From positions 2,992,660 through 3,056,659 of the forward strand of contig JAOWCC010000577.1 in assembly GCA_030867875.1 (NCBI GenBank): DNA of 64,000 nucleotides, written 5' to 3'. Shown piece after piece: positions 1 to 19,989 of the stretch. The notes beneath the pieces are model-generated. The model had not been told where the DNA came from and searched no databases. It worked only from the letters and a program-made list of their open reading frames with translations. The stretch's first letter is position 1, and every line of letters starts with the position of its first letter. The DNA comes from Actinernus sp. WN-2022 (Eukaryota > Cnidaria > Anthozoa > Actiniaria > Actinernidae). A program made the translations under genes and the position numbers.

Positions 1-66
1 GAATGGATGAAGCTGCTTATAGTTCGTAACAGCATCATTTCCGTTGTCATAGTTTGGAATTTCCAT
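1..66 (-). CDS. N-terminal fragment of a divergent gene, probably the packaging ATPase
   Basis: A minus-strand frame opens with ATG at 66 (CAT at 64-66) and stays open for all 22 codons to the window edge, with an acidic, Asn/Tyr-rich start and an HPF tripeptide at the edge. No motif of a P-loop ATPase is visible because the fragment is too short. The assignment rests on context: an FtsK/HerA-type packaging ATPase is a core gene of this virus group, is absent from the rest of the block, and must therefore lie to the left if the element is complete. It could equally be another viral gene. Confidence 0.4.
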   Translation of the reverse strand, partial: MEIPNYDNGNDAVTNYKQLHPF

Positions 67-166
67 CTTATCTATACATATTGAATAGACTATTTAACAC
101 TACGTTCTTGATATATGTCGTGAAAAAGATAAGTCGAGATAAGTTGAGATAAGTTATATAACGTAT
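67..166. promoter_or_regulatory. Divergent promoter region with GATAAGT repeats
   Basis: This 100-base gap separates the leftward gene starting at 66 from the rightward gene at 167. It holds three tandem 10-base units GATAAGTNGA/GATAAGTTAT at 128-157, followed by TATATAACGTAT running into the start codon at 167. Two genes reading outward from a short AT-rich gap imply a shared control region. The factor binding the GATA-like repeats is unknown. Confidence 0.5.
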
Positions 167-1246
167 ATGTATACAATGGATATAAATGAGTTTAAAAAGC
201 ACGTCATTCCAAAGATTGAATCTGGTAAAATGGTCGATATTGTCCGTAAAGCCATTAAAGATGGAGAAAATAATAAGCAGGACAAATATGAAAAACGAAA
301 AGAAGTGTACAAACCAATCGTTCAACAACTGGAAAAAGAGATAGATGAGATAAGTGGTTTAAGGGAAGAGTACGTTAAGTCTGCAAATAAGCCAATCACA
401 TACACTCAACAAGTTCAACAACTAGCTATAAATGATGGAAAAGATGAGATAAAAATCATAGCTAATATGGATAAAGGGTTTACGCCTGAAGAATTCGTCA
501 TTATGGAGAAATACAATCTACCATTACCCTCTAAGGTTCTATTAGACACACTAAAGGATGATAAAACAGTTGGTGATGTTTTGAGAGAAAGTAGCGATAT
601 TAATAAACTGTTGGGTCAACAACAAGGTCATATTTCTACAACGAAAAAATCTAGGAGTCAGAATAAAGATGAAATAGCTAAGTACAAGAAGGAGATTAAT
701 GCAATAAAAAAATATAGAAAACGAATAGGTTTTACTGAAGAAGGAATAAAGACACTACAAACAGGAAAGGGTATTTACAATCAACCAAAAAGGAATGCTT
801 ACAAGATCACAAGTGGTGGGCAATATGGCAACCTAAGTATAGATGTACCCCAACTGTTTGGTCAACTTAAATTGATAGCAAGTAAAGATGGTAAGAACGT
901 ATATAATACGATGGTTGATTTTGACACTATCGATTTGCTCACGAAACGCTTTAATAGTAAGAAAAAATACAGCGATCTCTCTAAGAGTGTTTTCAACGAT
1001 CTCAACGATCTATCCGAAATCCCAATACATAGAACATCTAAGAAGTACTCTAAAATAGGAGCTGGAGTAGTATACTATAATGATCCACAAGATCTATTGA
1101 ATCGTTTGGAATTGCTTGGTGGCTCGATTGCGGCAGGTAACGATTCACTAAAAAACGAGTTCTCGGAGGTTGCGCACACACTGAGACGGTTGAATGTATT
1201 TTCTAATGATCATCTCGAGAAATTGTTGGATGAATATATTATGTAA
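167..1246 (+). CDS. Conserved-looking viral protein of unknown function (359 aa)
   Basis: This is an intact lysine- and glutamate-rich ORF. Residues 1-75 are strongly charged and likely helical or coiled-coil, as are residues about 155-190 (a run of K/E-rich heptads). The C-terminal half (about 200-359) looks globular, with a Gly-rich turn followed by mixed alpha/beta sequence. I recognise no enzyme motif, signal peptide or membrane segment. It is the first gene of the rightward capsid cluster, 12 bases ahead of the penton-like gene, so a virion-assembly or structural role is plausible by position only. Two ATGs compete: 167, which overlaps the ACGTAT motif seen at other starts in this element, and 176, in better context (ACAATGG). 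Confidence 0.8.
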   Translation: MYTMDINEFKKHVIPKIESGKMVDIVRKAIKDGENNKQDKYEKRKEVYKPIVQQLEKEIDEISGLREEYVKSANKPITYTQQVQQLAINDGKDEIKIIANMDKGFTPEEFVIMEKYNLPLPSKVLLDTLKDDKTVGDVLRESSDINKLLGQQQGHISTTKKSRSQNKDEIAKYKKEINAIKKYRKRIGFTEEGIKTLQTGKGIYNQPKRNAYKITSGGQYGNLSIDVPQLFGQLKLIASKDGKNVYNTMVDFDTIDLLTKRFNSKKKYSDLSKSVFNDLNDLSEIPIHRTSKKYSKIGAGVVYYNDPQDLLNRLELLGGSIAAGNDSLKNEFSEVAHTLRRLNVFSNDHLEKLLDEYIM

Positions 1247-1258
1247 TCAAATAGTATA

Positions 1259-2038
1259 ATGTCGAATGTGAGAGAAAGAGCAATATATATTTCATCTGTT
1301 GATAGAGAAAAGCGTGGTGTGAGTAAGTCTGAAGATTTCACCATAAAATTTAATCCTTCAATAATGCTTCCTTCTGACAAGGAACACGAAGTGGCTGTGG
1401 ATAAAATATCAATGACATACTCATGGCAAAATATCACTCCAGAATATGACAACAACACCATAAAATATAGTCATGACGGAAGTACATGGACTACAGTGAT
1501 ATTCCCTAATGGGATGTATTCTTACCTTGACATAAATGACTATATACATCAAGTAATGAAAATAAATGGCCACAAGACCACAGTCAATGGTGTAGATAAG
1601 TTCGATATTAACGTAATCTTCGTGTTAACCACATACAAAGTAGTTGTTGAAATTAGTAAGAACTACCAATTAGACCTAAGAGAATCGAATTTTGGAGAAC
1701 TCATTGGATTCAATAAGAAAATCGTCAATACGACTGAGTACGGATCCAAGCTACCGAATATCACAAATAGTATCGACACGCTACACGTGAATACAGATAT
1801 TATAAATGACAGCATCGTTGGAGGATCTAATAGCAATACTTTATTCGTCATTCCAACAGACGGTTTCACTCGATCATACCCATTTACTGTTGAGCCAAAA
1901 AGAGCATTATTCAATTCAGTTTCAACAAACATCATCAGCAAAATGCGTTTCTATATAACGGACTCAATAAGAAGACCAGTAAATCTAAATGGAATTGAAT
2001 GGCATATGACTATAATATTGAGATCCACTACATTATAA
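1259..2038 (+). CDS. Penton-like minor capsid protein (probable single jelly roll)
   Basis: A 259-aa soluble protein, rich in beta-branched and aromatic residues with regularly spaced strands and Asn/Gly/Asp turns, as expected of a jelly-roll fold. The N-terminus carries an R-x-I-Y-I-S-S-x-D-R-E stretch (residues 6-16), the kind of short N-terminal arm seen in minor capsid proteins of this virus group. Its position between the unknown 359-aa gene and the basic protein, and two genes before the major capsid protein, fits a penton vertex subunit. Its length is near that usual for Polinton/adintovirus pentons (around 250-300 aa). The fold is inferred from composition and context; I see no diagnostic catalytic motif. 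Confidence 0.6.
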   Translation: MSNVRERAIYISSVDREKRGVSKSEDFTIKFNPSIMLPSDKEHEVAVDKISMTYSWQNITPEYDNNTIKYSHDGSTWTTVIFPNGMYSYLDINDYIHQVMKINGHKTTVNGVDKFDINVIFVLTTYKVVVEISKNYQLDLRESNFGELIGFNKKIVNTTEYGSKLPNITNSIDTLHVNTDIINDSIVGGSNSNTLFVIPTDGFTRSYPFTVEPKRALFNSVSTNIISKMRFYITDSIRRPVNLNGIEWHMTIILRSTTL

Positions 2039-2053
2039 TCTAACGTAATATAT

Positions 2054-2413
2054 ATGAGGCATTGTGAATACAAAAAGAAATACGATCCTACCATAGGAAA
2101 GCGCGTCTATAAGCATGTTTACGGCGATGGTATATTCGACTCAGTCACTAATTTTGCACGTAGAATGCTTGGTAAGACCATAAAGAAGACAGTCAAAGAT
2201 GCATCGAAGAAAGTCGCAACAACTGTATCGAATAAAGCTGGAGATAAAATTATTAATCTATTACAGAAGAATAGAGGAAATGAGCCTGAGCACGCTATCA
2301 ATCAACCAATCAATCAACCAATCAATCAAGATGCTCCATCGGATTATGAGATAAACGAACGTGTTCAGCGTCTATTAAGTGGATCTGGAAAACTTCGAAG
2401 GCTAAGGTTGTAA
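2054..2413 (+). CDS. Small basic, partly amphipathic virion-type protein (119 aa)
   Basis: The protein is Lys/Arg-rich at both ends, consistent with nucleic acid or capsid-interior binding. Residues about 24-75 begin GDGIFDSV and run into a long predicted amphipathic helix with alternating hydrophobic and Lys residues. A short repeat of the tetrapeptide N-Q-P-I follows (residues ~79-91), coming from an imperfect 12-base DNA repeat at 2300-2330. It lies between the penton-like and major capsid genes. Core protein or membrane-active capsid peptide are both possible. I cannot assign it to a named family. The start is preceded by ACGTAATATAT. Confidence 0.65.
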   Translation: MRHCEYKKKYDPTIGKRVYKHVYGDGIFDSVTNFARRMLGKTIKKTVKDASKKVATTVSNKAGDKIINLLQKNRGNEPEHAINQPINQPINQDAPSDYEINERVQRLLSGSGKLRRLRL

Positions 2414-2450
2414 TTAATGCGATCGTTTTATCTAATCTATTAATATAACA

Positions 2451-3731
2451 ATGGAAAGCTTTAGAAATCCTAAATATGTTCAAAGGTATGAAGATGTTTC
2501 TTTTGATCTAGAAACGCCTCTAGTAACGCAAGTAGCTAATGGAGGGAGTCAAGTCAAAACTGGATATAGATTTGTTGGTGATAATTCTGGTGAAATAGCT
2601 CCTTTTGATTGGTATAATGCTAGAATAGAAACCGACTTTAAGGTTCAATTACAGGCTGATGGTGGAAACATAGCTATTGATGACCATAATGGTATAGTAA
2701 ATGGATCTCATTCATTGATTAAAGAAATCGTCATTAAAGTAAATGGTATACAAGTATACGACAATAACAATGCAAACCAAACCGTAAATATTAAGAACCT
2801 ACTTGAATACGACGCTTCCTTTGCTAATAGTAGTGCTACAAATGAATTCTACTATCTCGATACTAGTAGAGGTGCTGAAGAGAGAGTCGCAGAGGCGACA
2901 TACAACATAGGTTTTACCCGCAGGAAGGCATTGCTTGGCGTGTCTTCAACTGTGAATACAGAAATACCTCTCAATAGGTACTCATTTTTTGAAGCGTTCG
3001 AAGACGAACTTATGCCTAACACTAAGGTTGAAGTACAAATTACTCTAGAAAGTGATGCCAATCTAATTTGGCAAGCTGGTGCTGCTTGTAGAGTTCTTAT
3101 TACGAAGTTTAAATTATGGGTACCAAGAATCATCTTCACACCTGAAGGAGAAAGCCAATATATGAGTAAATATCTGAAACCACATAAATGGTCTTATCTA
3201 AGGGAGATGGTTGAGAGAGGCAACTCTACTAGTCAACAAACAGGTACTTTCAAAATATCTTCAGGAATTAATAGGCCACGACATATATTTGTATGGATAT
3301 CAAATGACGCAAATCAAGATTTGCAAACAGCGAATCCATTTCTATACAACACTTTTTCAGTGTGCGATGCAAAAACACTTACGAGTTGCCATCTCGAAGT
3401 AGGGAATGGTAATCATTATCCCGAAAGCGAATACATGCCAAATACAGAGATGTCTAGAGTTTATAGAGGTGTGTTGGAATATGTACATGCTAAAAATGAC
3501 TACAACGGAGGAACTCTTTTGACTAGGTCAAATTTTAGTACCATTTTCCCATTTATTTACTTCAACCTCGAAAATCAGAAACAAGATATTAAGGATGGTA
3601 CTACAAAACTTGCATTCAAATATAAATTATCAGCAGCAACTAATGTAGACTACAGTGTGTATGCACTTGTTTTGTATGAACAAGACATTGAGCTCACACA
3701 ATCTAACGGCAAGATATTATTGAGATCGTAG
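2451..3731 (+). CDS. Major capsid protein (hexon-like, double jelly-roll type)
   Basis: A 426-aa protein and the largest structural ORF in the cluster, with beta-rich sequence throughout, two similar-sized halves and many Asn/Gly/Ser loops, as expected for two tandem jelly rolls. The N-terminal region contains the pattern leading from a Phe-Asp-Leu-Glu-Thr-Pro start (residues 18-23) to a D-W-Y-N-A-R strand (about 53-58). The C-terminus ends in a strand-rich tyrosine/valine segment. It sits between the small basic protein and the pVI-like protein, the usual place for the hexon homologue. It is shorter than many Polinton capsid proteins but within the range I would accept for adintoviruses. Upstream ATTAATATAACA is shared with the next gene and may be a late promoter. 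Confidence 0.7.
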   Translation: MESFRNPKYVQRYEDVSFDLETPLVTQVANGGSQVKTGYRFVGDNSGEIAPFDWYNARIETDFKVQLQADGGNIAIDDHNGIVNGSHSLIKEIVIKVNGIQVYDNNNANQTVNIKNLLEYDASFANSSATNEFYYLDTSRGAEERVAEATYNIGFTRRKALLGVSSTVNTEIPLNRYSFFEAFEDELMPNTKVEVQITLESDANLIWQAGAACRVLITKFKLWVPRIIFTPEGESQYMSKYLKPHKWSYLREMVERGNSTSQQTGTFKISSGINRPRHIFVWISNDANQDLQTANPFLYNTFSVCDAKTLTSCHLEVGNGNHYPESEYMPNTEMSRVYRGVLEYVHAKNDYNGGTLLTRSNFSTIFPFIYFNLENQKQDIKDGTTKLAFKYKLSAATNVDYSVYALVLYEQDIELTQSNGKILLRS

Positions 3732-3760
3732 TTTTTATGTAACATATTAATATAGTAACG

Positions 3761-4597
3761 ATGTCGTATTTCAAATACAATGTAAATCTAACTGATGGTC
3801 AAAAAGACAAATTGCTTCGATCATATCATAAGCGTGCACCAATCACTCTTCGACTGAAAAACGATCAACTAAATGGTTCAGATACTGTACTATTAACGAA
3901 AACTCAAGTAAACAAGATCCAAAAGAGTAAAAGAGATGGTACAGGATGCGACATAAAGATATCTCAAACGCAGATTAGGCATCAGGAAGGAGGGTTCCTC
4001 GGATCTCTCTTACCAGCATTGATGAAGGTAGGGTCAATGGCACTTCCGTGGCTATCTAAGGCTATTGGACCACTCACTAGTGGAGCTCTATCTGGAGCGG
4101 CCTCATATGGTGTGAATAAGGCATTGAAATCAGGTTCTGGTTTGTTCAATGTCCCACAAAATAAGGTCGACAAATTGATACAATACAAAGATTACCTAAC
4201 ACCTGCTCAGAAAAATCAGATCGTAAGTGCACTTCAAAGCGGTTCTGGTATGACCCTAAAACTGACTCGAAAACAGCAGTCAGGCGGCTTTCTCGGAACC
4301 CTCTTAGCTAGCCTAGGTATACCGATGCTTATCAAGGCTCTCGGAGGAGGCCTTCAGGTTGACCCACGTGCATCAAATTCAAGCACACAGAATGTGTACG
4401 TTCCTCCAAAACCCAAGGGAGGATACATCAATCCTCTTATGCTTCAGCCTCCGCCATATATAGGTAGCTGGGGGGACAATTTGACAACGAGAGGTTACGG
4501 GATTAAAAAAAAGGCCAAAAAACAAAAGGCATCAGGCTTGCTATTAGGAAAGAACAGCCCATTCAACGGCATCCCCCTGCTAGGAGCACTTCTATAA
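3761..4597 (+). CDS. Hydrophobic PPxY protein, adenovirus pVI-like in layout
   Basis: A 278-aa protein. The N-terminal 70 residues are charged and carry a repeated L-T/K-x-x-Q-type pattern. Two Gly-rich hydrophobic amphipathic segments, each introduced by GGFLG (about residues 77-120 and 175-198), could insert into membranes. A PPPY motif follows in the C-terminal third; PPxY is the known WW-domain/Nedd4 docking motif also found in adenovirus protein VI. A cluster of Lys residues and a hydrophobic tail end the protein. The sequence L-G-G-G-L near residue 198-202 fits the adenain cleavage preference (M/I/L)-X-G-G, and the protease gene follows 5 bases later. A role in capsid lining and membrane penetration is inferred from layout, not from demonstrable homology. 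Confidence 0.55.
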   Translation: MSYFKYNVNLTDGQKDKLLRSYHKRAPITLRLKNDQLNGSDTVLLTKTQVNKIQKSKRDGTGCDIKISQTQIRHQEGGFLGSLLPALMKVGSMALPWLSKAIGPLTSGALSGAASYGVNKALKSGSGLFNVPQNKVDKLIQYKDYLTPAQKNQIVSALQSGSGMTLKLTRKQQSGGFLGTLLASLGIPMLIKALGGGLQVDPRASNSSTQNVYVPPKPKGGYINPLMLQPPPYIGSWGDNLTTRGYGIKKKAKKQKASGLLLGKNSPFNGIPLLGALL

Positions 4598-4602
4598 AAT
4601 TT

Positions 4603-5058
4603 ATGAATAGACCATTATCTAATGTCGACATAATGAATTGGGTCAAACAACTAAATGTCAAATTCTTTAGGGGAGTCTTTTCGAGAGATACCTTACCAAA
4701 GATTATCAATAAAAACGAATGCGCTATCATCAATTTAGATACGCAAAATGGGTCTGGTACACATTGGATTTGTATTAGAAACACACACGAGAAGTATTGC
4801 GAGTACTTCGATTCATTTGGATTGTCGATCCCACGAAATATAGAACGATACCTATCACGCAGCAAAAAGCAGATATTTTACAGCGGGCATGAGATACAAG
4901 ACCGTTCAAGCGTTTTATGTGGTTATTGGTGCTTGTATTACCTATTGGAGAGACAAATGGGAAAATCGATTTTCGATGTGATCCATAATCCACTGTTCGA
5001 TATGAACAATCAAAGCATCAATCGTAGATTCTTAATCGATTATTTTAGTCTACTCTAA
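4603..5058 (+). CDS. Adenain-like (Ulp1/C5-type) cysteine protease
   Basis: At 151 aa this is a compact maturation protease. Catalytic residues appear in the expected order: His54 in G-T-H-W, Asp70 in Y-F-D-S-F-G, Gln99 as the oxyanion residue and nucleophile Cys106 in V-L-C-G-Y-W-C. This is the His-Asp/Glu-Gln-Cys arrangement of the adenovirus protease and Ulp1 clan. It would cleave capsid and core precursors inside new virions. It starts 5 bases after the pVI-like gene and ends 6 bases before the PLA2 gene, so these three genes probably act together in virion maturation and entry. The length is somewhat shorter than adenovirus protease (about 204 aa), as usual for these elements. Confidence 0.9.
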   Translation: MNRPLSNVDIMNWVKQLNVKFFRGVFSRDTLPKIINKNECAIINLDTQNGSGTHWICIRNTHEKYCEYFDSFGLSIPRNIERYLSRSKKQIFYSGHEIQDRSSVLCGYWCLYYLLERQMGKSIFDVIHNPLFDMNNQSINRRFLIDYFSLL

Positions 5059-5064
5059 TCGTAT

Positions 5065-5877
5065 ATGAGATCATACTGTATAAAAGAAAAGAAAGTAACT
5101 GATTGCGTTCCAGGTAGTGAGAGACATGAAAGAGCTAAGAATGGAAGACTAATGTTGAAGTGTACTTGTAGTTCTTGTGGAATAACTAAATTGAAATTCG
5201 TTAAGGTAGAAGAAGGTGCTGGTATAGGAGATGCGCTTTTCGAAGCAGGTATAAAGGGTTTGTACCAGATGGGCAAAATGGGTGCAAAGCAAGCTATCAA
5301 AAGCGATTTTGCTAAGAAGAAAGCATCAAATTATATCAAGGACATAGCCAATAAGATGATCGATCAAGGTGTTTCACAAACGTTAGACCAACTAGGTTCT
5401 GGGTACGAATTAAATTGGGATGGTAGTGTTAAACTACCTCATGAGTTATACCATTATCAAGATCCCAATTCACACATCGATGGTGGTAAGTTAGATATTC
5501 ATTCATTAATTGGTAAGTTGCCAAAACCAAAGGGTGGATGGACACCGGGTTCGTATAAATACATGGGTCCTTACAACTCACTCGAAAATCAACTAGAGTA
5601 TGATCCAAACACTGGTAACGTTCTTGAATGGCATGTACAACCAAAGAATAAACTAGATGAAATATCGGCTCATCATGATATTTGTTATGACATGGGAAAG
5701 AATAAAGGAGATTGCGATAAGAAAATGGTTTCAGATATCGATCAAATAAATTGGAAGGACAAACCATGGGGAACCACTGCCGTTAGGAACATCATGAACA
5801 CTAAACAAAAATTAGGTCTAGGCGTAAAGAAGCCAAAAAACGAGAAGAGCCGTCGAGTGAAGAAAACTGGCAAGTAA
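5065..5877 (+). CDS. Parvovirus-like phospholipase A2 virion protein
   Basis: A 270-aa protein with a C-terminal secreted-PLA2-type domain. The Ca2+-binding loop is Y-M-G-P-Y-N-S (residues 166-172) and the catalytic pair is His204-Asp205 in H-D-I-C-Y, followed by a helix ending in Asp224. This is the arrangement of the parvovirus VP1-unique region, known to breach endosomal membranes during entry; adintoviruses carry a similar domain. The N-terminus has Cys5, Cys14, Cys33, Cys35 and Cys38, possibly a small zinc-binding unit, then a Gly/Ala-rich helical segment. The basic tail (from residue 255) overlaps the integrase frame and contains the frameshift signal at codons 257-259. The start at 5065 is preceded by CGTAT. 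Confidence 0.85.
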   Translation: MRSYCIKEKKVTDCVPGSERHERAKNGRLMLKCTCSSCGITKLKFVKVEEGAGIGDALFEAGIKGLYQMGKMGAKQAIKSDFAKKKASNYIKDIANKMIDQGVSQTLDQLGSGYELNWDGSVKLPHELYHYQDPNSHIDGGKLDIHSLIGKLPKPKGGWTPGSYKYMGPYNSLENQLEYDPNTGNVLEWHVQPKNKLDEISAHHDICYDMGKNKGDCDKKMVSDIDQINWKDKPWGTTAVRNIMNTKQKLGLGVKKPKNEKSRRVKKTGK

Positions 5878-5928
5878 AACTAGCAGATGAATTGCATAAA
5901 CCAATAAGACGTAAATTCACTCGGCGGC
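5835..5928 (+). promoter_or_regulatory. Predicted -1 ribosomal frameshift signal (PLA2 to integrase)
   Basis: The heptamer A AAA AAC (5835-5841) is in the zero frame of the PLA2 ORF (codons AAA 5836-5838 and AAC 5839-5841). After a 7-nt spacer, bases 5849-5861 (GCCGTCGAGTGAA) can pair with 5916-5928 (TTCACTCGGCGGC), giving 13 consecutive pairs with one G-U. The loop is 54 nt. A six-base complementarity between the loop (5892-5897) and 5979-5984 could add a pseudoknot, but that is weak. A slip of one base back enters the integrase frame, which is open from 5805. Heptamer, spacer and stem all match the known retroviral type of signal. Confidence 0.75.
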
Positions 5929-6800
5929 GCGTTATAGCTAATCACATTGATGAAATATGGTGTTCTGATCTCGTTGAGATGCAACAGTTTAGTAAGTGGA
6001 ATAAAGGCTATCGATACCTTCTCATGGTTTTAGACGTCTTTAGCAAATATGGCTGGATCTTACCATTAAAAGATAAGAAAGGTGAAACAGTTATGAAAGC
6101 TCTTCAAACGATATTCGATGAAGGAAGAACACCACAGTACTTTTGGGTCGATAAAGGCAAAGAGTACTATAACAAGCATGTGAAAGAGCTATTGGATAAG
6201 CATAGTATACGAATGTATTCAACTGAAAATGAAGAAAAGTCTTCCGTTTGCGAGAGATGGAACCGTACAATAAAGACGAAAATGTGGAAACAATTTACTA
6301 TCCAAGGTAATACGCAATATTTAGATACGCTGCCTAGAATATTGAAACAGTACAATAGTACAAAACATAGTTCCATAAAAATGACTCCTATTGAAGCATC
6401 TAAGAAGAAGAACGAAGGAACCGTGTACTTCAATCTATATGGCAATATGGAAACTTCAAAACAGAAACCTACGTTTAAGATTAGCGATAAGGTTCGAATA
6501 AGCAAGTACAAGCGTAAGGTATTCGACAAAGGTTATACTTCGAATTGGACTGAAGAAGTGTTTACAATCGACAAAATCCAGTATACGAACCCTATTACAT
6601 ATGGGTTGAAGGATCTGAATGATGAGGAAATACAAGGTTCCTTCTATGAACCTGAATTATCGAAGGCGACTCAAGAAATCTTCAGAATCGATAAAGTCAT
6701 TAGAAGGAACTACAAAAAGAAGCAGGCTTTAGTATCATGGAAAGGGTATAGTGATGAGTTCAATAGTTGGATACCATTCAAGAATCTAGATGCGATATGA
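5841..6800 (+). CDS. Retroviral-type (rve, DDE) integrase with C-terminal chromodomain
   Basis: Counting from a TTG codon at 5892, the catalytic triad is Asp26 (W-C-S-D-L), Asp87 (F-W-V-D-K-G) and Glu121 (V-C-E-R-W-N), a D,D-35-E-like core. A basic SH3-like region follows, then a chromodomain at about residues 264-300 with aromatic cage residues and the W-K-G-Y motif. It would insert viral DNA and could steer to methylated histones. No in-frame AUG precedes Asp26; the first is at 5979-5981, after it. The frame is open upstream to 5805 with plausible coding sequence, so I place the start of the integrase part at the predicted frameshift point. An N-terminal HHCC zinc domain is not visible in this frame. 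Non-AUG initiation or splicing are the alternatives. Confidence 0.88.
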   Translation, partial: REEPSSEENWQVKLADELHKPIRRKFTRRRVIANHIDEIWCSDLVEMQQFSKWNKGYRYLLMVLDVFSKYGWILPLKDKKGETVMKALQTIFDEGRTPQYFWVDKGKEYYNKHVKELLDKHSIRMYSTENEEKSSVCERWNRTIKTKMWKQFTIQGNTQYLDTLPRILKQYNSTKHSSIKMTPIEASKKKNEGTVYFNLYGNMETSKQKPTFKISDKVRISKYKRKVFDKGYTSNWTEEVFTIDKIQYTNPITYGLKDLNDEEIQGSFYEPELSKATQEIFRIDKVIRRNYKKKQALVSWKGYSDEFNSWIPFKNLDAI

Positions 6801-6824
6801 AAATAATATAAGCATACAATATAG

Positions 6825-6947
6825 ATGCATGCTAAATTAATCAAATTACTTGATAGCATAAGAAAAGTAATCGATACTTGCGAAGTACTACTGAAAAGAT
6901 TTAAACGTATATTGTCTTCTATACGTATATATGGTAGAACTGAATAA
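6825..6947 (+). CDS. Possible 40-aa amphipathic peptide
   Basis: A short ORF starting ATGCATGCT fills the gap after the integrase and overlaps the first 17 bases of the zinc-finger gene in another frame. The product is almost wholly helical in composition, with Leu/Ile every third or fourth position and Lys/Arg between, suggesting an amphipathic helix. Upstream is AATATAAGCATACAATATAG. The element type is known to carry small melittin-like genes, but nothing here proves expression. It may be chance. Confidence 0.3.
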   Translation: MHAKLIKLLDSIRKVIDTCEVLLKRFKRILSSIRIYGRTE

Positions 6948-7125
6948 CGATAAAAAGAAAAGGAAGACTAGATGCGACAAAATATATGAATGTAGCAATG
7001 ACCGAGTTAAGGCGTGGTTCAATACCCATAAATTCTATTGCCTATTATGTGAGAAAGAGATGCATCCAGCTTCGAAATATACACATCTGAAATCTAAGAA
7101 GCACACAAACGCACATCGAAAATAA
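6931..7125 (+). CDS. Small C2H2 zinc-finger protein (64 aa)
   Basis: Very basic protein with one finger: Cys38-x2-Cys41 in Y-C-L-L-C-E and His52-x5-His58 in H-L-K-S-K-K-H, with a short C-x2-C to H spacing of the U1C/matrin type. An N-terminal Lys/Arg-rich stretch suggests nucleic acid binding. It lies between the integrase and PolB genes. The start codon directly follows ACGTATAT (6923-6930), and TTAAACGTAT at 6901-6910 matches the repeats ahead of PolB, so the two may be co-regulated early genes. Its function is unknown; a viral transcription or replication accessory factor is a reasonable guess. Confidence 0.65.
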   Translation: MVELNNDKKKRKTRCDKIYECSNDRVKAWFNTHKFYCLLCEKEMHPASKYTHLKSKKHTNAHRK

Positions 7126-7144
7126 AAAACATATAGATTCGATT

Positions 7145-7198
7145 AAACGTACGACGACACTTAAACGTATGACGACACTTAAACGTATGACGACATAT
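7145..7198 (+). promoter_or_regulatory. Three 18-base tandem repeats over the PolB start
   Basis: The unit AAACGTATGACGACACTT occurs three times (7145-7162 with one change, 7163-7180, and 7181-7198 with its end diverged). The second and third units supply ATGs at 7169 and 7187, so the PolB N-terminus reads the repeat as protein (M-T-T-L-K-R-M-T-T). The core TTAAACGTAT is also found ahead of the zinc-finger gene. Promoter function is inferred. Confidence 0.5.
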
Positions 7199-10100
7199 TG
7201 TAGTATGCCTGAAAATCAGATGAAAACGAATGAAATTATTATCTCAACTAATAGTAATATGAATGCTAGCGATCTTAAGAAATTGTCTAAATCGAAACTT
7301 ATCGAATTGCTATTGAAACGAAATACTATAAGACGTCCAAAAATTGAAATCGTAGATGACTACAAACCAGTTCCCACTCCACGAAGAAGCGTTAAGGACA
7401 TCATCAAACACTATGAGGAACACATAATCCTACCACCAACTCAATTCAGAGATGACTACAAACCGATCCCAGCTCAGAGGACCATTAAGAATACAACCAA
7501 AAGACCGGTTCCTGCTCCAAGAACTAAGATCATACAACTAGATAGAGCTATGAAAGGTTCAATCAGATCGTTTGAAGTCGTCATTAAGAACAATAAAGAC
7601 CCACTAGTACAACTAACCACTACGAGAAAAGGCATTCAGACTCAATTCGAAAAGCTATTGATTGAGACCAAAGGTTACAAATTTGTTGAAACAATAAAGG
7701 TCACATTCGAAAAACAGCTAGACGAAGACAAGACAACAATCAAAACAGCTTATTTCAACAGCGCTGCATCTACGATAATAAATGAAAGCGATATAATGGA
7801 AGGACTACAATTGGCCAAGCAACAAATACTAAATAAAATAGCGCAATGGATCTCAGAGGGTTCAGGATGGACTATAGAAACAATCGACAAACATTATATC
7901 AACATAGTCAAGTATGAGCCTATGAAAGGAAGCAGCTACATACGACTACCAGCAGAGCTTAGAAATTCGGCTAAAGGCTTGATCAACATGAAAAACGTCG
8001 ACGACGAATGCTTCAGATGGTGCCACGTAAGGCACTTGAATCCACAGGAAAAATACCCTCAGAGAATCAAAAAATGCGACAAAGACTTCGTAAAGAATCT
8101 AGACTATTCCAACATCGAATTTCCAGTAGCTACTAAGCATTACAATAGAATCGAAAAGCAAAACAACATTAGTATCAGTGTCTTTGGATACGAAGAAAGG
8201 AAGCCATATCCAGTATTCGTATCGAAAGAAAAGTACAATGACCATATGGATCTGTTATTGATTACGGAGAATACGAATAAGCATTACGTGTTAATAAAAG
8301 ACTTCGATAAGTTCATGTATAACCAAACGAAACACAAGGATAGAAAGCACTTCTGTAGACATTGCTTACAATGCTTTGGATCTGAAAGAGTGTTGGTCGC
8401 TCACAAAGAGAATTGCATCCAAGTAAATGGTACGCAAGCAATTAAGATGCCAACTAAGGAAAACAACATATTGAAATTCAAGAACTTCCATAAACAACTA
8501 CCAACACCGTTCGTGATCTATGCCGACTTCGAAGCTATAACTGAGAAGATCGATGGCTGCAAACCTAATAACGATAAATCATATACTGAAGCCTACCAAA
8601 AGCATACAGACTGTGGTTATGGCTACAAAGTAGTATGCTGCTACAATGACAAATATAGTAAACCAGTGCAGATATATAGAGGTGAGAAATCCGTCTACAA
8701 ATTCATGGAAAGAATGCTTGAAGAGGTTAAATGGTGCCAAAAGACGATCAAGAAAAAATTCAACAAAGACATGATAATGACTAAAGCGGATCGAATGGAT
8801 TTCAAAACTTCTGATAAATGCCATATATGCAATGAAGAGTACACTGAAATCGACATAAGAGTTAGAGATCACTGCCACATAACAGGAAAATACAGAGGGT
8901 CAGCTCATCAAGATTGCAACCTCAACTTCAAGATAAAGGCTGAAGAAATCAAGATACCAGTCATTTTCCATAACTTACGTGGATACGACAGTCATCTTAT
9001 CATGCAAGAAATAGGTAAAGTCGTTAAGGATCATCCATATACTGATAAAAACGGTAATGAAAGAGAGCACCAAATCAACGTGATTCCAAACAATATGGAG
9101 AAATATATGGCTTTCATGCTAGGCAACAACTTGGTCTTTCTCGATAGCTTTCAATTCATGAGCCAATCACTTAGCAATCTAGCAAATAACCTACCAAAAG
9201 ATCGTTTCAAATACACGTCAGAAGAATTTCATGATGAGAAACTCGAATTAGTGAAACAAAAAGGGGTTTATCCTTACGACTACATGGACAGCTTCGAGAA
9301 ATTCGACAAGACACAACTACCAACGAAAAAAGAATTCTATAGCATCTTGAATGACGAACACATTACGGATGACCAATACCGACATGCCCAAAACGTATGG
9401 AATACTTTCGAACTGGAAACGATGGGTGAGTACCACGATCTATATCTCAAAACCGATATCTCGTTGTTAGCAGACGTATTCGAAAACTTCAGAAGAACGT
9501 GTATGCAATACTACAAACTAGACCCATGCCACTACTTCACTAGCCCAGGATTGAGTTGGGATGCGATGCTGAAGATGACTAACATTAAACTAGAGCTCAT
9601 GACTGATGTCGATATGTTTCAATTCATCGAAATAGGTATGCGCGGAGGCGTTAGTTACATAGCCAACAGATATGGAAAGGCAAACAACAAGTACATGAAG
9701 GACTACAATGAGAATGCGCCCTCAAAGCACATCATGTACCTCGATGCTAACAATCTCTATGGGTGGGCCATGTCTCAGTACTTACCGACTGGTGGTTTCC
9801 GATGGCTGACAGAGAAAAAAATCGACGAAACCAACCTAGCTAAGTACAATGAAGACAGCAAGAAAGGACTAATCTTAGAAGTCGATCTATTGTATCCAAA
9901 AAAATTACACGACAACCATAACGACTATCCGTTAGCTCCTGAAAAAGTCAAGGTAACTGAAAACATGCTATCGAATTATTGCACAGAGATTCAGAAGAAA
10001 TATAACATTTCGATTGGACAAGTCCATAAGTTGATTCCAAATCTGAATGACAAAACCAAGTACATAATCCATTATAGAAATCTTCAACTATACCTCGATC

Positions 10101-10999
10101 TCGGCTTGAAAATAAAGAAAGTACATAGAGTGCTAGAATTCAATCAATCGCCATGGTTGAAGCAATACATCGATTTCAACACTCAGAAGAGAACCAATGC
10201 TAAAAATTCATTCGAGAAAGACTTCTTCAAGCTCATGAACAATTCCGTATTTGGGAAGACGATGGAAAATCTGAGAAAGCGAGTAGACGTTAGATTAGTA
10301 ACCAACGAAAAGAAGTTACTACAAATGACTTCTAAACCAACTTACGTGTCATCAAAAATATTCAACGAAGATCTAGTAGCAGTACACAAAATCAAAGAAA
10401 CGCTTACACTCAACAGACCTGCATATGTAGGTATGTGCATCCTCGACATTTCTAAGACGCTAATGTATGATTTCCATTACAACTACATCAAAAAGAAGTA
10501 TAGCCAAGCTAAGTTGTTGTTCACAGACACCGACAGCCTAATGTACGAAATCGAAACTGAAAACGCTTATCAAGATTTTTGGTACGATAAACATAAATTC
10601 GATAACAGTGATTATCCAATAGACAACCAATTCCATGATACAACGAATAAGAAAGTCATAGGCAAATTCAAAGACGAGGCTGCTGGAATTCCTATCGCAG
10701 AGTTCGTAGGGCTTCGATCAAAAATGTACAGCTACATGAAAGACAACAACATAGGTGCTAAGACGGCTAAAGGCATCAAGAAGAACGTCGTCAAGAAGAC
10801 TGTCAAACATGAAAACTACAAAGACGTGCTACTGAACAACAAACAGATGTCACACACTATGAAGACCATTAGAAGTCAAAACCACCAATTGGGAAGCTAC
10901 GAAATCAACAAGATATCACTATCGTGCTTCGATGACAAACGGTATCTATTGGAAGATGGGATCACGAGCTACGCTTATGGACACCATAAAATACGATAA
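7169..10999 (+). CDS. polB: Protein-primed family B DNA polymerase
   Basis: The protein is 1276 aa and intact. 3'-5' exonuclease motifs: ExoI D453-F-E455, ExoII H-N-L-R-G-Y-D (601-607), ExoIII Y759-x3-D763. Polymerase motifs: A D859-A-N-N-L-Y-G, B K1021-L-M-N-N-S-V-F-G, C D1120-T-D1122-S. The wide A-B spacing leaves room for the terminal-protein regions of protein-primed enzymes. Between ExoI and ExoII a C-x2-C ... D-H-C-H ... H-x2-C-N unit (551-584) resembles the endonuclease VII/HNH fold. An N-terminal extension carries three P-V/I-P-x-x-R motifs (about 69-115) and a C2H2-like finger near residue 400. It would replicate the viral genome from protein-capped ends. The start could be 7169 or 7187. 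Confidence 0.95.
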   Translation: MTTLKRMTTYCSMPENQMKTNEIIISTNSNMNASDLKKLSKSKLIELLLKRNTIRRPKIEIVDDYKPVPTPRRSVKDIIKHYEEHIILPPTQFRDDYKPIPAQRTIKNTTKRPVPAPRTKIIQLDRAMKGSIRSFEVVIKNNKDPLVQLTTTRKGIQTQFEKLLIETKGYKFVETIKVTFEKQLDEDKTTIKTAYFNSAASTIINESDIMEGLQLAKQQILNKIAQWISEGSGWTIETIDKHYINIVKYEPMKGSSYIRLPAELRNSAKGLINMKNVDDECFRWCHVRHLNPQEKYPQRIKKCDKDFVKNLDYSNIEFPVATKHYNRIEKQNNISISVFGYEERKPYPVFVSKEKYNDHMDLLLITENTNKHYVLIKDFDKFMYNQTKHKDRKHFCRHCLQCFGSERVLVAHKENCIQVNGTQAIKMPTKENNILKFKNFHKQLPTPFVIYADFEAITEKIDGCKPNNDKSYTEAYQKHTDCGYGYKVVCCYNDKYSKPVQIYRGEKSVYKFMERMLEEVKWCQKTIKKKFNKDMIMTKADRMDFKTSDKCHICNEEYTEIDIRVRDHCHITGKYRGSAHQDCNLNFKIKAEEIKIPVIFHNLRGYDSHLIMQEIGKVVKDHPYTDKNGNEREHQINVIPNNMEKYMAFMLGNNLVFLDSFQFMSQSLSNLANNLPKDRFKYTSEEFHDEKLELVKQKGVYPYDYMDSFEKFDKTQLPTKKEFYSILNDEHITDDQYRHAQNVWNTFELETMGEYHDLYLKTDISLLADVFENFRRTCMQYYKLDPCHYFTSPGLSWDAMLKMTNIKLELMTDVDMFQFIEIGMRGGVSYIANRYGKANNKYMKDYNENAPSKHIMYLDANNLYGWAMSQYLPTGGFRWLTEKKIDETNLAKYNEDSKKGLILEVDLLYPKKLHDNHNDYPLAPEKVKVTENMLSNYCTEIQKKYNISIGQVHKLIPNLNDKTKYIIHYRNLQLYLDLGLKIKKVHRVLEFNQSPWLKQYIDFNTQKRTNAKNSFEKDFFKLMNNSVFGKTMENLRKRVDVRLVTNEKKLLQMTSKPTYVSSKIFNEDLVAVHKIKETLTLNRPAYVGMCILDISKTLMYDFHYNYIKKKYSQAKLLFTDTDSLMYEIETENAYQDFWYDKHKFDNSDYPIDNQFHDTTNKKVIGKFKDEAAGIPIAEFVGLRSKMYSYMKDNNIGAKTAKGIKKNVVKKTVKHENYKDVLLNNKQMSHTMKTIRSQNHQLGSYEINKISLSCFDDKRYLLEDGITSYAYGHHKIR

Positions 11000-11456
11000 A
11001 CTAACGGTACATTTCAACTAAAATCGATCTTCATCTTTCCATGCACCAGCATCCATTACATAGAGAAGATGCAAGATACCTCGAACGCACTATGAAATAG
11101 AAAGAAAGGAAAATACTATAGAAGAAACTCGCAGAAGCCAATATATGGCAATAGCGGATAGCAGGCAAGGCAATGAAGCCATTAGAATGGATAGCCTAGA
11201 ATGCAACTATGAAAAGTTGAATACTATAGTATGAGAAGAACGAAGAGAAGAACCATCAATCGGCTGGTTCAAACACATTTCGAAAATATACGTACACATC
11301 ACTATAGATCAAGCCTTTAGACATCCAAAGATTGAAACCAGTTATGGAGATTTCCAAGAATTTGACATCCAAAGATTGAACTGGTTAAACCGGTTATGGA
11401 GAATTCGACCTTGACCTTGACCTTGAGAAGAATAAAAAATACGATCGATAAATAAT
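11000..11456. other. Non-coding right flank of the viral element
   Basis: No ORF of note. A direct repeat beginning GACATCCAAAGATTGAA and ending GGTTATGGAGA-like sequence occurs at 11319-11350 and, with an 8-base insertion, at 11364-11402. A TGACCT(T) triplet repeat lies at 11408-11425. Such repeats just inside a terminus may belong to the terminal inverted repeat region. Confidence 0.5.
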
Positions 11457-11525
11457 AGGGTGGGGGTATGAGATCAGAAACCATATGATGGAAAATGGTC
11501 CGGTGCCCCCACCCTCTATACTACT
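11457..11525. repeat. GC-rich terminal hairpin and inferred right end of the element
   Basis: AGGGTGGGGG (11457-11466) pairs with CCCCCACCCT (11506-11515) across a 39-base loop. The strand then ends TATACTACT at 11525; read inward from the right this is AGTAGTATAGAGGGTGGGGG, and AGT-initial inverted ends are typical of Polintons. The matching left terminal repeat should lie outside the window. Confidence 0.5.
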
Positions 11526-12545
11526 ATCTCTTAATACTCTAATAACAAACAATTCACGAAAAATTAACCATGACTATAGAAAAAAGTTTGCATGATATTT
11601 CATTTGTTGTAGCAGGTGGAGGAATACTTCGTTTAACTCGGCCATGAAGGAATACAGCAAGAATCAAAGACAATTGTTCAGCATCAAGACATTGCTAACC
11701 TGAATATTGCAAGAGGTCTGTTGCTATAGTTTATAAGTAAATACATTTCACGTTCATATGCGCAGTAATTTGATTGCTATGCCTTAAGATGTAATATTAG
11801 TCATAATATCGTTCACGCTTGGAGTTAGAGCAGAGTTATGAGATTCTTAACGTGGTATCGTGACACGTTAACTCATAACGTGGTAATTACCACAATACCA
11901 CGTTAAGAATCTCATAATGTGGTATTGCGGTAACCTGACCGGTCCACCGTACATCACTTCCGCTGAATATAGCGAACGCACATCCTCAATGACGGGCAGC
12001 ATTTTACCGGTTAACTATCCTAAAATGTGGTTTGGGAACATTTTTTACTAATTTCTAACACTGATTGACCCATTGACACTAAAAAAGTGGCAAATCGAAA
12101 TGATAAATGTTCGTCGTACGGCAAGGAATGCAGGAAGGTCATTGGCTTAAACATCAAATTATATCAAAACTTGAAGAAGAAAATTTTTTCCCCAATTTTT
12201 TTAACAGATTGGAATTGCATCTAGTGAAAACTCGTAACTTTCAGTGTGACGAAAATTCAACATGGGGAACATTTTTCTTGGTTATTGTTTTGGACACTTC
12301 TGATTGGACGAAATGTTTTTACACCAAAGGAAAGTAGTGTTAAAACTTTTCAGAGGATTTGATTTGAGAAATTATCATTTAAGGGTTGATGAGTTGTCAG
12401 TACGAAAAACAGGAAATTCTACCGTGTGGAAAGCAAATTGAACAATATAATTGTGCCTAGTTTTTACCCGGATTGTTTCGGCTTAATTTCTGGCCTGCCA
12501 TTTATTTCTGCATTTGAAATGCTTATAACTAGACATAAGTATAAT
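11526..12545. other. Host flank without recognisable gene
   Basis: AT-rich sequence with only short random ORFs. Its one clear structure is the hairpin at 11837-11916, listed separately. I see no gene. Confidence 0.5.
11837..11916. repeat. Perfect 22-bp inverted repeat (hairpin)
   Basis: Bases 11837-11858 and 11895-11916 are exact reverse complements (TATGAGATTCTTAACGTGGT...), with a 36-base loop that itself contains the palindrome GTGGTAATTACCAC. This is probably a small foldback MITE. Confidence 0.75.
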
Positions 12546-12550
12546 TAGTA

Positions 12551-12962
12551 CAGGGTTCACACAGTCATGGAAAGTCATGGAATTTCAAAAATGTCAAAAG
12601 TCATGGAAAAGTCATGGAAATTTTATCATCGACCGTTGGAATGTTTTGATGCTTCACTTTCCTTGCAGAATTCTAGATAGATTAGTAGGTTCTCTTTCAG
12701 CACTCTTCGTCATTATCCATCTGCTACTTGGTGATTTTGACTTGGTTGTTTTAAAACCGGCGGAGTCGCTACATGCTAAAGATAATATGTTACGTTGAAA
12801 TAAGGATGTGCTCCATTGGTAGTATTCCTTCCTTTGTAAAAGTTTTCAAGCAATATTAAAGTGGGTGGACAGGCCCAGTTAAATGACGTTTTCTAGTATT
12901 TCTTGTCTCCAAGAAAATGGAAAAGTCATGGAATTCATGATAACTTTCATGTGTGAACCCTG
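12551..12962. mobile_element. hAT-like MITE with 5-bp target duplication
   Basis: Terminal inverted repeats CAGGGTTCACAC ... GTGTGAACCCTG bound a 412-bp non-coding element rich in AAGTCATGGAAA repeats. TAGTA flanks both sides (12546-12550, 12963-12967). CAGGG ends are typical of hAT elements; a 5-bp duplication fits the hAT5 group rather than the usual 8-bp one. Confidence 0.7.
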
Positions 12963-13049
12963 TAGTAATTTTAATATGATCTTTCATGTGGTAGCATTAG
13001 TTTCGTGATGCGGCCTAGAGAAGACTTCGTATGAGTGGGACAAACTACG

Positions 13050-13195
13050 GCACAGTTACTGTACGGCACGATTACCGTACGGCACGCGCACTGTACAGCA
13101 CGGATACTGTACGGCACGGGTACTGTACGGCACGGGTACTGTACGGCACGGGTACTGTACGGCACGGGTACTGTACGGCACGGGTGCTGTAAGTC
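13050..13195. repeat. 16-bp minisatellite (TACGGCACGGGTACTG)n
   Basis: About nine units, the left ones diverged and the right ones near identical. The array lies inside a pair of 17-bp inverted sequences, TGGGACAAACTACGGCA at 13036-13052 and its exact complement at 13356-13372, so it may be the core of a small foldback element. Confidence 0.8.
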
Positions 13196-13372
13196 ATGTC
13201 TAGACTTTGAAATGGTTTCCTTATTGATTTTGTCCTACTGGTCCAATATAAGAAAACTGGAATGCGAATAAAAGTATTGTGTTGTATTGTACAATCAAAT
13301 TACCGAGTTACGGGTACAGTAAGTTACAGTAATGGTCACGGTATGGCTGCAGACATGCCGTAGTTTGTCCCA

Positions 13373-13776
13373 GCCAATTCCTCATACCAAACCTGCATGC
13401 TCAACTGTTGTAGCTGTATATGGATGTATTTGTTGTCTACACTATTACATTCTATGGGCGTTTCGTAGCATACAATCACGTGGATGTACTGGACGGCAAA
13501 AAAAATATTTCATTTATTTAAAAGCGACATCGGTATTCTTGGGTTGTAATCAATCCCTGGAGATTCGGCAAAAGACAAAGACGCGGCAGCCATGTTGGAG
13601 GACGGAACAAAAGACACTAATGAGGAATTTTTCGTTTATGTTCCTCCAACATGGCCGCCGTGACGTCGGGTGCAACCCAAGAATTGCTTTTAGAAAAACC
13701 TGTTTGTAAATGTTATTGTACAATCGATCGTTAGCGGAGCTCCCGCGCGGGCTGAAGGTCCGGGAGCACCATACAT
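13373..13776. other. Spacer with no recognisable gene
   Basis: There are short ORFs only. An imperfect inverted pair, GACGCGGCAGCCATGTTGGAG (13580s) against CTCCAACATGGCCGCCGTGACGTC (13642-13665), suggests another degraded foldback repeat. Confidence 0.4.
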
Positions 13777-14306
13777 CACAGGCAGCCCAAGATCACGATT
13801 TGTGGCTCTTACAAATCGTACGGTAGATTACGTGATTGCTCGCGCAAGATTGATTGCGTGATAGCGCGCGCTAGAGTCACCGTTTTCCCCGGAAATTCAC
13901 TAATAATAGAGTTTTTATTGATTTCTATAATGAGAGAGTTCTCAAAAATCAAAAAATATCTAAACCCGATCCAAACAAGCCCAAAATAGCAGAGAATACC
14001 CAAGGACATAAGAAAAGGACACTCACAGTACATTTATTGCAAAATGTTATTTCATTACCTTTTTTTTACCACGATAAGAAATCAATACAAACTCTATTAG
14101 TGATTTTACCACAATTGCCGGTAATCTCGCGATCTGATTGGTCGATGTGCGGTGGTAAATGAGAGTCCAGACAACGGTGCTGACGCGAGAAAGTTATAGA
14201 CCACGCTGGCTCTTTCAAAGCTGTCAGGCTTTGAAAGGAAACTTCCTTGTACGTTTTCTAATATTGTTGTAAAAAAAAAAAAATCCCTCTGGTTTTCCGT
14301 GGTGTG

Positions 14307-17795: not shown

Positions 17796-18170
17796 TTAAA
17801 AAGTTAAAAAATGACGATCAAATGCTTTCTTAAGAATATAGGTCTTCAAGTGGATCTTAAAAGAGTCAATGTTACTGCAGAGTCTAATAGTCAGGGGTAG
17901 AGAGTTCCATACTACAGGACCTGCATGGGCAAACGCCCTGTCACCTAAGGTCTTGCATTTTGTTCGAGGAGCCAAGAGTAGATGTCTATCATCTGATCTT
18001 AAATGATATGAGCTGACAGGCTTACTTAATAGTAGTTCCGAGATGTAGTTCGGCGCCATGTCGTTCAGACCCTTGTATGCAAGAAGAGCGATCTTGAACT
18101 CAACGCGATACTTAACAGGCAACCAGTGGAGGTAAAAAAAACTCTGCATTTCTAACGAGACCTGAAACAA
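17796..18170 (-). pseudogene. LINE A reverse transcriptase, C-terminal part
   Basis: The fragment contains L-H-W-L-P-V-K-Y-R-V-E-F-K followed by a L-R-S-x-D segment and a W-N-S-L-P motif near the end, the typical carboxy end of CR1/L2-type LINE polymerases. It is separated from the thumb fragment at 18398-18658 by the SINE insertion. Confidence 0.75.
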
Positions 18171-18196
18171 CCATGGGGGCTGATCAAAGCCAGGTC

Positions 18197-18396
18197 CCGG
18201 CTAATCCACAGATAGAATTGGAATTTAGCGTGTTGGTTTTTGCGGAGGGAGGAAAACCGGAGAACCCGGAGAAAAACCCTCGGAGCAAGGGCGAGATACC
18301 AACGAACTCAACTCACATATGGCGCCGCGTCCGGGATTCGAACCTGGGCCACAGAGGTGAGAGGCGAAGCGCTTAACCACTGCGCCACCCGAGTGA
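18197..18396 (-). mobile_element. tRNA-derived SINE inserted in LINE A
   Basis: On the minus strand the element opens GGTGGCGCAGTGGTTAAGCG (A-box region) and contains GGTTCGAATCCC (B box) about 30 bases further on, followed by a non-tRNA tail. A second copy lies at 63604-63790. Flanking GATCAAAGCCAGG (18184-18196) and AATCAAGACAGG (18397-18408) look like a decayed target duplication. It is not a tRNA gene: there is no folded acceptor stem. Confidence 0.8.
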
Positions 18397-18397
18397 A

Positions 18398-18658
18398 TCA
18401 AGACAGGAGTGATAGGGCAAATCTCGGTATTAAGCATGTCACTCTTGCAGCAGCATTGAGAACCTTCTGTAGACGATCATGCTGGTACTGGGGCAGTCCG
18501 AATAGGAGCGAGTTACAGTAATCCAGGTGTGACGTCACAAATGCATGGACCAGCGTCTTGGTTGACTCAACAGACAGGAATTTTCTTATCTGTCTGATGT
18601 TGTAGAGACCCCTGAATGCTTTACTGCAAACCTTTCCCACATGAACGTTCATAGACAT
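18398..18658 (-). pseudogene. LINE A reverse transcriptase, thumb region
   Basis: This segment contains V-H-A-F-V-T-S-H-L-D-Y-C-N-S-L-L-F-G-L-P, a pattern shared by LINE thumb domains. It ends in a frameshift just before the SINE. Upstream coding sequence resumes beyond LINE B at 19933 and above. Confidence 0.75.
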
Positions 18659-18671
18659 GCGGTTGTGAAAC

Positions 18672-19905
18672 TATAATAATAATAATAATAACTTTATTTA
18701 CGTGTCAAATACATCTAGCAGAGGGGAAAAACCCACCGCTAATAGGGGACACCTACAACTAATTGGATGTTAAAAAATCTAAAAATCTAAAAACTTGAAT
18801 GACAATATCTATAATAATAATTAATGGTGACTATTTACAAGTTAAAAAACTAACAGAAGAAACAATGCAGTTAAAGTTAAAATACATTCTAAAATAATTA
18901 TGTGTTGCATAAATGGCAGCCACTACAACCGCCTAGTAAATTACTTAGGTCACGTTTCCGTATACATGCTTTAAATTCATTAAGTTTGACGGAGCATCTC
19001 TCCTTACTGGATAGTTTGCTCCATAGTTTTGGGCCTAAATATCTAATTGTGTGTTTGCCGTATGTTACTGTATTAAAACTAGGTAAGGAGAAATCCGATT
19101 GCCTTAAATTATACGAGCTGTTGTTAGCCTTAAATAAGCTACATATTGATTTAGGGCATAAGTTATACCTAACTTTGTACATTAAAATGCATATATCTTG
19201 TAGCCGTCTATTCAGTAATGTGGGTAAGTTCGCTTTTTCTAACAATAACTGGTAACTGGACTGTTTGTCCCTGAAAACAGCTCTTAATCCTCTTTCCTGT
19301 AATCTTTCCAACTTTCGAGTATCACTGGCTCTACAGAAATGCCATACCAGATGACAGTAGGTGAGATGAGGGAGGATAGCTGTCTTATAAAGTTGTAATT
19401 TAGCCATAGTGGGAATTAAATTCCTGAGTCTCATGATCACACCAATCCTCTGACTAGCCTTCTTACATACAGTACCAATATGCTCATTAAAATTAAGTCT
19501 ACAGTCGATTGTAACACCCAAGAGTTTCAAACTTTCAGATGCTCTAATATCCTTGCCCTTTACAGTAATACTTGTATTATTTTCATTGTTAGTGCCTTTG
19601 TTACAAATGTTCATCGTCTGATATTTTTTAAGGTTGCCTTCAAGGAGATTCGAATCATACCAATTAGTTGCTAAAGTTGCACTCTCCTGAAGTTTCGAAA
19701 CTACGGTATGCAAATCTTTCCCCTTTTCATAAATCTGGTGATCGTCCGCGTACATAGATAAACTGGATTCTACACTATAAATAAGATCGTTCTGAAAAAT
19801 GTTCCAAAATAGTGGTCCTAAGACAGACCCGTGAGGGCAGCCACGGTTCATATGCTTCCAGGAACTTGTAGAAGATCCGACGCGTACTCTACTGAGACGA
19901 TCACA
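18672..19905 (-). mobile_element. LINE B, 5'-truncated, nested in LINE A
   Basis: A 344-aa frame (18898-19932) starts with about ten residues of LINE A and then becomes a different reverse transcriptase: H-G-S-V-L-G-P-L, M-Y-A-D-D-H (catalytic Asp pair), L-L-G-V-T-I-D and a thumb/C-terminal part. The 3' UTR ends at (TAT/TTA)n 18672-18690. The insertion splits LINE A after its K-T-E-F-L-I-I region. Confidence 0.8.
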
Positions 19906-19989
19906 CGAGCCCAAGTTCCGTACACTTTTCATAGGCTTGATGTCAGAATCACCAACCTTGAGAGAGTTGATGGTGACTTTAGACAGCTG

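Follow-up and report, generated by a model that had tools for sequence, protein, structure and literature searches.

A candidate -1 frameshift signal between a PLA2 gene and an integrase frame in a Polinton/adintovirus-type element of Actinernus

The window analyzed here is a stretch of 64,000 nucleotides from the genome of Actinernus sp. WN-2022 (contig JAOWCC010000577.1, positions 2,992,660 to 3,056,659), and its positions 1-11 kb hold a run of ORFs that all point in one direction. An adenain-type protease ORF (4507-5058, + strand; Pfam Peptidase_C5, 1.9e-4) lies directly 5′ of the PLA2 ORF (5059-5877, + strand; first AUG at 5065), whose reading frame we refer to as the zero frame. The PLA2 ORF contains HHDIC and YMGP motifs and is laid out as an N-terminal DUF5679-like zinc ribbon, a parvovirus-type PLA2 domain, and a basic KLGLG..KN tail. 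It matched Pfam families PF08398 (2e-7) and PF18930 (1.2e-5, slightly under its curated cut-off), and a comparison against PDB gave zero matches at E 0.1. The integrase frame (5805-6800, + strand), which is -1 to PLA2, carries an rve core (3.9e-11) and a C-terminal Chromo domain (9.5e-6), both identified with Pfam. Integrase residues D116 and E150 align with foamy virus integrase, and D55, within a WxxD motif, corresponds to the catalytic Asp of this family. Further downstream is a large ORF (7091-10999, + strand), for which Endonuclease_7 (5e-5, slightly under cut-off) was the sole telling Pfam match. By eye, we read this ORF as a PolB with an endonuclease VII domain; insect Maverick POLB is likewise listed with an endonuclease VII domain (PMC5803895).

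Judged by its gene content, the element harboring PLA2 and integrase is of the Polinton/adintovirus type. It has both an adenain protease and an rve integrase with a chromodomain, the combination by which Polintons, Mavericks, and adintoviruses are recognized, and the named relatives of its proteins come from the corals Oculina and Stylophora. Among nine proteins tested, there were no Pfam matches to protein-primed PolB, double jelly-roll capsid, or packaging ATPase. A long terminal inverted pair was not found in positions 1-14000, and the start of the element may precede the window. As side observations, the ORF at 3743-4597 and the protease ORF at 4507-5058 also overlap in the -1 relation, where the overlap has no correctly phased heptamer and the protease Met sits right after its end; an inverted repeat of 27 nt, nearly perfect and with its arms 28 nt apart, lies at 11836-11917; and reverse-transcriptase-like ORFs, recognized by eye on the minus strand at 17796-20343, probably belong to a LINE adjoining the element.

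The PLA2 and integrase frames stand in the -1 relation and share 73 nt (5805-5877), with the integrase frame opening at 5805. Within the overlap is a slippery heptamer, A AAA AAC (5835-5841, + strand), in the X XXY YYZ phase of the PLA2 ORF. It is followed by a 7-nt spacer (5842-5848, + strand) and by the 5′ arm of a 13-bp stem (5849-5861, + strand), which pairs with a 3′ arm at 5916-5928 (+ strand) with one G-U among the 13 pairs. Heptamer, spacer, and stem had been reported in an initial annotation of this DNA, and all were present on re-reading. That annotation had also stated that the integrase frame lacks an AUG 5′ of its first catalytic Asp, and no usable one exists: stops at 5784 (TAG) and 5802 (TAA) separate an AUG at 5766 from the rest of the frame, leaving a dead start (5766-5804, + strand), and the next AUG in this frame is at 5979 (Met59). 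The latter does fall past the catalytic Asp as claimed, but the distance given, 10 codons, is obtained by counting from Asp49 and is only 4 codons from Asp55.

We then examined the junction in other copies of the element. A search of the same genome (1.39 Gb) returned 6426 integrase candidates, of which 121 were scored, and more copies were sampled using relatives' proteins. Junctions were read at 119 distinct places, representing part of the sampled copies; the count includes the window's own place (L014) and leaves out L001 and four duplicate places (L065, L031, L062, and L071). These copies are best-match picks from one genome and are often near-identical. The heptamer is kept in 112 of the 119 junctions, ending in AAC in 111 and AAT in 1, and is lost in 7. 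Where it is kept, the spacer is 7 nt in 111 of 112 cases and an unbroken helix of at least 12 bp follows in 106, while the remaining six can pair 11-12 of the 13 positions; the loop of the stem measures 49-62 nt. A run of six As was present in 102 of 110 junction matches (4 of the 110 being duplicate places). Across 126 loci, the junction motif was absent from seven (L025, L103, L115, L121, L123, L125, and L127), though L121, when read directly, does have the heptamer, with a damaged 3′ arm. L025 is similar to L022.

The start of the integrase frame showed a consistent arrangement as well. In an earlier subset, the frame was open upstream without an AUG in 104 of 106 copies. Among 101 copies, a stop closes it 2-3 codons ahead of the heptamer in 54, at 8 codons in 1, and at 10 codons in 45; the remaining copy, L085, is a continuous PLA2-integrase fusion with a longer A-run, entered in the junction count as AAAAAAC despite a run one A longer. 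With the stop this near in 54 of the 101, the integrase frame often opens nearly at the slip site. The junction thus presents the sequence features by which a programmed -1 frameshift is recognized, namely, a zero-frame heptamer, a structure 5-9 nt 3′ of it, and a conserved -1 ORF without a start.

The helix is unusual for its position. None of 5000 dinucleotide shuffles produced a helix of at least 13 bp starting 5-9 nt 3′ of the heptamer (best, 12 bp), and such a helix placed exactly 7 nt 3′ occurs at 1 of 10880 positions. Of 26 heptamers in positions 1-11000, counted in all phases, the runner-up has a helix of 7 bp. How unusual the RNA fold is varies with the length taken: the z-score is an unremarkable -1.57 for 149 nt and -3.39 for 94 nt. 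When the 3′ side was recoded at random with synonymous codons, the helix was reproduced at P values of 0.0085 (window), 0.004 (L042), 0.009 (L051), and 0.03 (L084), and of 0.12-0.13 for L032 and L102, with codon usage for L102 taken from only 174 nt. As recoding yields the helix in 12-13% of trials for the last two, it is fairly likely to arise from the protein sequence alone in some families. Loop-to-downstream pseudoknots were sought in five families, which gave differing matches of 6-9 bp and none common to all.

Covariation of the stem was assessed in 22 distinct rows (286 cells across the 13 pairs) with 500 shuffles. Paired bases occupy 99.0% of the 286 cells, compared with 30-46% when the register is slid by 1-3 columns. 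Six pairs are invariant, three vary on one side, three are double-changed (11 cells), and one departs by unpaired cells only. The covariation score, the percentage paired, and the number of double-change cells were matched by 0 of 500 shuffles; the counts of double-changed pairs and of further pair types were each matched by 117 of 500 and are therefore unexceptional. Compensatory examples from the L032-like family include C-G to G-C and C-G to U-A. Double changes involve two pairs in that family and one pair in L042, and since they fall within these families, independent compensatory events are few. Some of them substitute integrase amino acids, such as Arg to Gln, and this holds for both arms. 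Together with the conservation described above, this covariation bears out, among same-genome copies, what the initial annotation had proposed should be seen in related elements if the signal is genuine.

Both the PLA2 and the integrase frames are under purifying selection. Integrase dN/dS among seven representatives was 0.04-0.15 for most pairs and 0.23 for one close pair, and stood at 0.04-0.06 between families with dS above 1; for PLA2, it was 0.06-0.26 where computable. L003 and L051 have distant PLA2 parts (dN 0.68) but near-identical junctions, suggesting that the PLA2 module was swapped while the signal persisted.

From these sequence features, we consider a -1 ribosomal frameshift producing a PLA2-integrase protein to be the best reading of the junction, and we hold it with high confidence. 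Ribosomes on PLA2 would stall at the 13-bp stem, and a fraction of them would slip one base back at A AAA AAC into the integrase frame, giving a minor PLA2-integrase fusion alongside free PLA2. Integrase would then be made solely as an extension at the C-terminus of PLA2, and the neighboring adenain-like protease might later cleave the two apart. We infer the slippage and its efficiency, as well as the delivery of integrase by the fusion to the virion or the viral DNA. PLA2 is carried by parvovirus VP1 and by insect Maverick CAP (PMC5803895), and by analogy with parvovirus VP1 and the insect Mavericks, the PLA2 here may be a virion protein. By the same analogy, packaging of the fusion in the virion is plausible and is the use we favor, with the chances about evenly balanced. 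Alternatively, the arrangement could serve simply to keep integrase scarce.

Relatives from other genomes were read as proteins, in which start codons are invisible and many Met residues were seemingly called at TTG or GTG. Among PLA2-only proteins, 81 of 111 tails have KLGLG followed by a KN step with S, Q, P, T, K, or A ahead of it, the pattern expected from an xxA AAA AAC site. The 120 listed integrase clusters include 31 that are fused to PLA2-side sequence by motif count, a low count because at least two motif-less clusters (P0074 and P0100) carry both domains. A further 41 begin fewer than 18 residues before LADELH and 10 begin 18-32 residues before it; LADELH was not found in 26, mostly because the gene model begins after it. 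Finally, 12 clusters open back across the site to an upstream Met at PLA2 W-G codons. The initial annotation had held that relatives with a separate AUG-started integrase and no slippery site would speak against its proposal, and outside this genome, this is seen in part, in these 12 clusters and in the 10 that start 18-32 residues before LADELH. The 12 argue against frameshifting being needed in every case.

The same 12 clusters also favor an explanation in which integrase initiates alone, from a leaky-scanned AUG inside PLA2, a near-cognate codon, or its own promoter, with the A-run and the stem arising as by-products of coding. The window itself has the W-G-site AUG, at 5766, but two stops follow it, and in the same genome, nearly all copies (104 of 106) have no AUG in the open frame, which in just over half of those measured closes immediately before the heptamer. 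Separate initiation also gives no reason for the stem to covary and to keep its 7-nt distance, and we regard it as very unlikely.

A second type of integrase, which shares the -1 relation to PLA2, speaks in that respect for the frameshift reading. A search with P0200 led to L123 (G000 C734:12698000-12699750) and L125 (G000 C685:49795150-49796900), in each of which a single continuous ORF comprises zinc ribbon, PLA2, and rve core. The integrase of this second type is 27% identical to that of the window over 154 residues, and the PLA2 parts are 43% identical. A further search, made with this second integrase, gave 86 rows, among which L123 and L125 are the exceptions: approximately 80 of the other 84 match the integrase part only, most of them interrupted by stops. 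We read seven junctions of the approximately 80, chosen for varied open-frame length. Integrase is -1 to PLA2 in all seven, with PLA2 stopping a few codons past a T/A tract, and in five, the integrase frame is ended by a TAA at the tract itself. The tracts are T3A7, T2A8, T6A7, or T5A8, with sums of 13 or 16 when the preceding Gs are included, and in the continuous copies L123 and L125, the tract is one base longer, with sums of 14 and 17. In the integrase part of L123, the first Met (residue 375) lies past the catalytic Asp (304). A stem was not found 3′ of the tract (fold z-scores of 0.5 and 0.3), and a canonical heptamer, with phase judged by eye, was missing in five of the seven junctions, both of which weigh against the frameshift reading. 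As no stem follows, the second type seems to reach the same outcome via a different, perhaps transcriptional, slip.

The frame change in the window family could likewise come from the polymerase slipping on the A-run as it transcribes, and not from the ribosome. This would suit the stemless T/A tracts of the second type, and it would also suit the variable, long A-runs implied by proteins of clade B. The PLA2 tails of these proteins (P0241-P0336) imply, from amino acids only, A-runs of approximately 8-12 in several frames, which suggests that in other genomes the slip site is an unstable homopolymer. The run in the window family, however, is six As only, usually too short for polymerase slippage, and polymerase slippage does not require a covarying stem 7 nt downstream. 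We therefore judge it very unlikely for the window family.

Splicing of an upstream, AUG-bearing exon onto the integrase frame is conceivable in a eukaryotic host, and one database gene model (P0074, from Oculina) jumps over the junction. Splicing predicts neither the conserved heptamer, spacer, and stem nor the continuous PLA2-integrase ORFs of L085, L123, and L125, and we consider it highly improbable. Least credible is damage or an assembly error in the A-run of a truly continuous gene: continuous fusions do exist, both among the listed clusters and in L085 with its longer A-run, but the six-A run is the norm, purifying selection acts on both frames, an integrase-frame stop lies right before the heptamer in about half of copies, and the second type stays -1 although its tract sum shifts by three.

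Ribosomal frameshifting at this junction would resemble that of retroviruses, in which gag-pro and gag-pol are joined by -1 frameshifts, as in MMTV gag-pro at A AAA AAC. As in retroviral Gag-Pol, there is a heptamer of this class, a spacer of 5-9 nt, a downstream structure, a downstream ORF without an AUG, and an integrase in the product. In contrast to Gag-Pol, the system belongs to a DNA element and has PLA2 as its upstream gene, the structure is a 13-bp stem with a loop of 49-62 nt and no common pseudoknot found, and the ORF that supplies integrase to the product has no reverse transcriptase match. The element shares with Polintons/Mavericks and adintoviruses a cluster of adenain protease, PLA2, rve-chromodomain integrase, and a large endonuclease VII-bearing ORF, and insect Mavericks too encode a PLA2 protein (PMC5803895). 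It differs from them in that integrase has no usable separate start and is joined to PLA2 by a -1 overlap. The sole outgroup DNA read, L001, is too degraded to reveal an integrase start.

Software-predicted -1 frameshifts have been reported in the adintovirus virion genes Penton and Hexon-Adenain (PMC11071296). These concern other genes, and the portion of that source available includes neither a PLA2-integrase junction nor covariation (PMC11071296). The available portions of three further sources make no mention of a PLA2-integrase frameshift (PMC8097293, PMC10120064, and PMC3671162), and none of the titles listed in the literature searches concerned one, the scope of which did not extend to the main adintovirus paper and one coral polintovirus paper.

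If the frameshift reading is true, it would represent a DNA-virus case of Gag-Pol-like fusion, with integrase joined to an enzyme associated with the capsid, and it would give Polinton-type viruses a concrete route for bringing integrase into a new cell. The hypothesis of a Polinton virion would thereby become testable, and the truncation or misfusion of these integrases by gene callers would be accounted for. A broader proposal is that an animal dsDNA virus-like lineage ships integrase in its capsid as an extension that rare frameshifting adds to a PLA2 entry protein, in the style of Gag-Pol, and that the arrangement arose at least twice, with two integrases, once driven by a stem at A AAA AAC and once by a T/A slippage tract. 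We offer this tentatively, rating its chance as slightly below one-half.

Scans of a viral-contig collection and tblastn of phage records gave no relative. The prokaryote collection yielded one degraded Polinton-like integrase fragment, L001 (JACCHT010000004.1), in a contig of a mussel-symbiont MAG, and its presence in a bacterial genome record is probably due to host contamination. Within the Actinernus genome, 13 rows, the window included, had the top score and 100% identity, and C635 carries many equal-scoring integrase copies within 140.2-140.8 Mb and 147.6-148.1 Mb. The high integrase copy number and the C635 clusters point to a recent, probably local, amplification.
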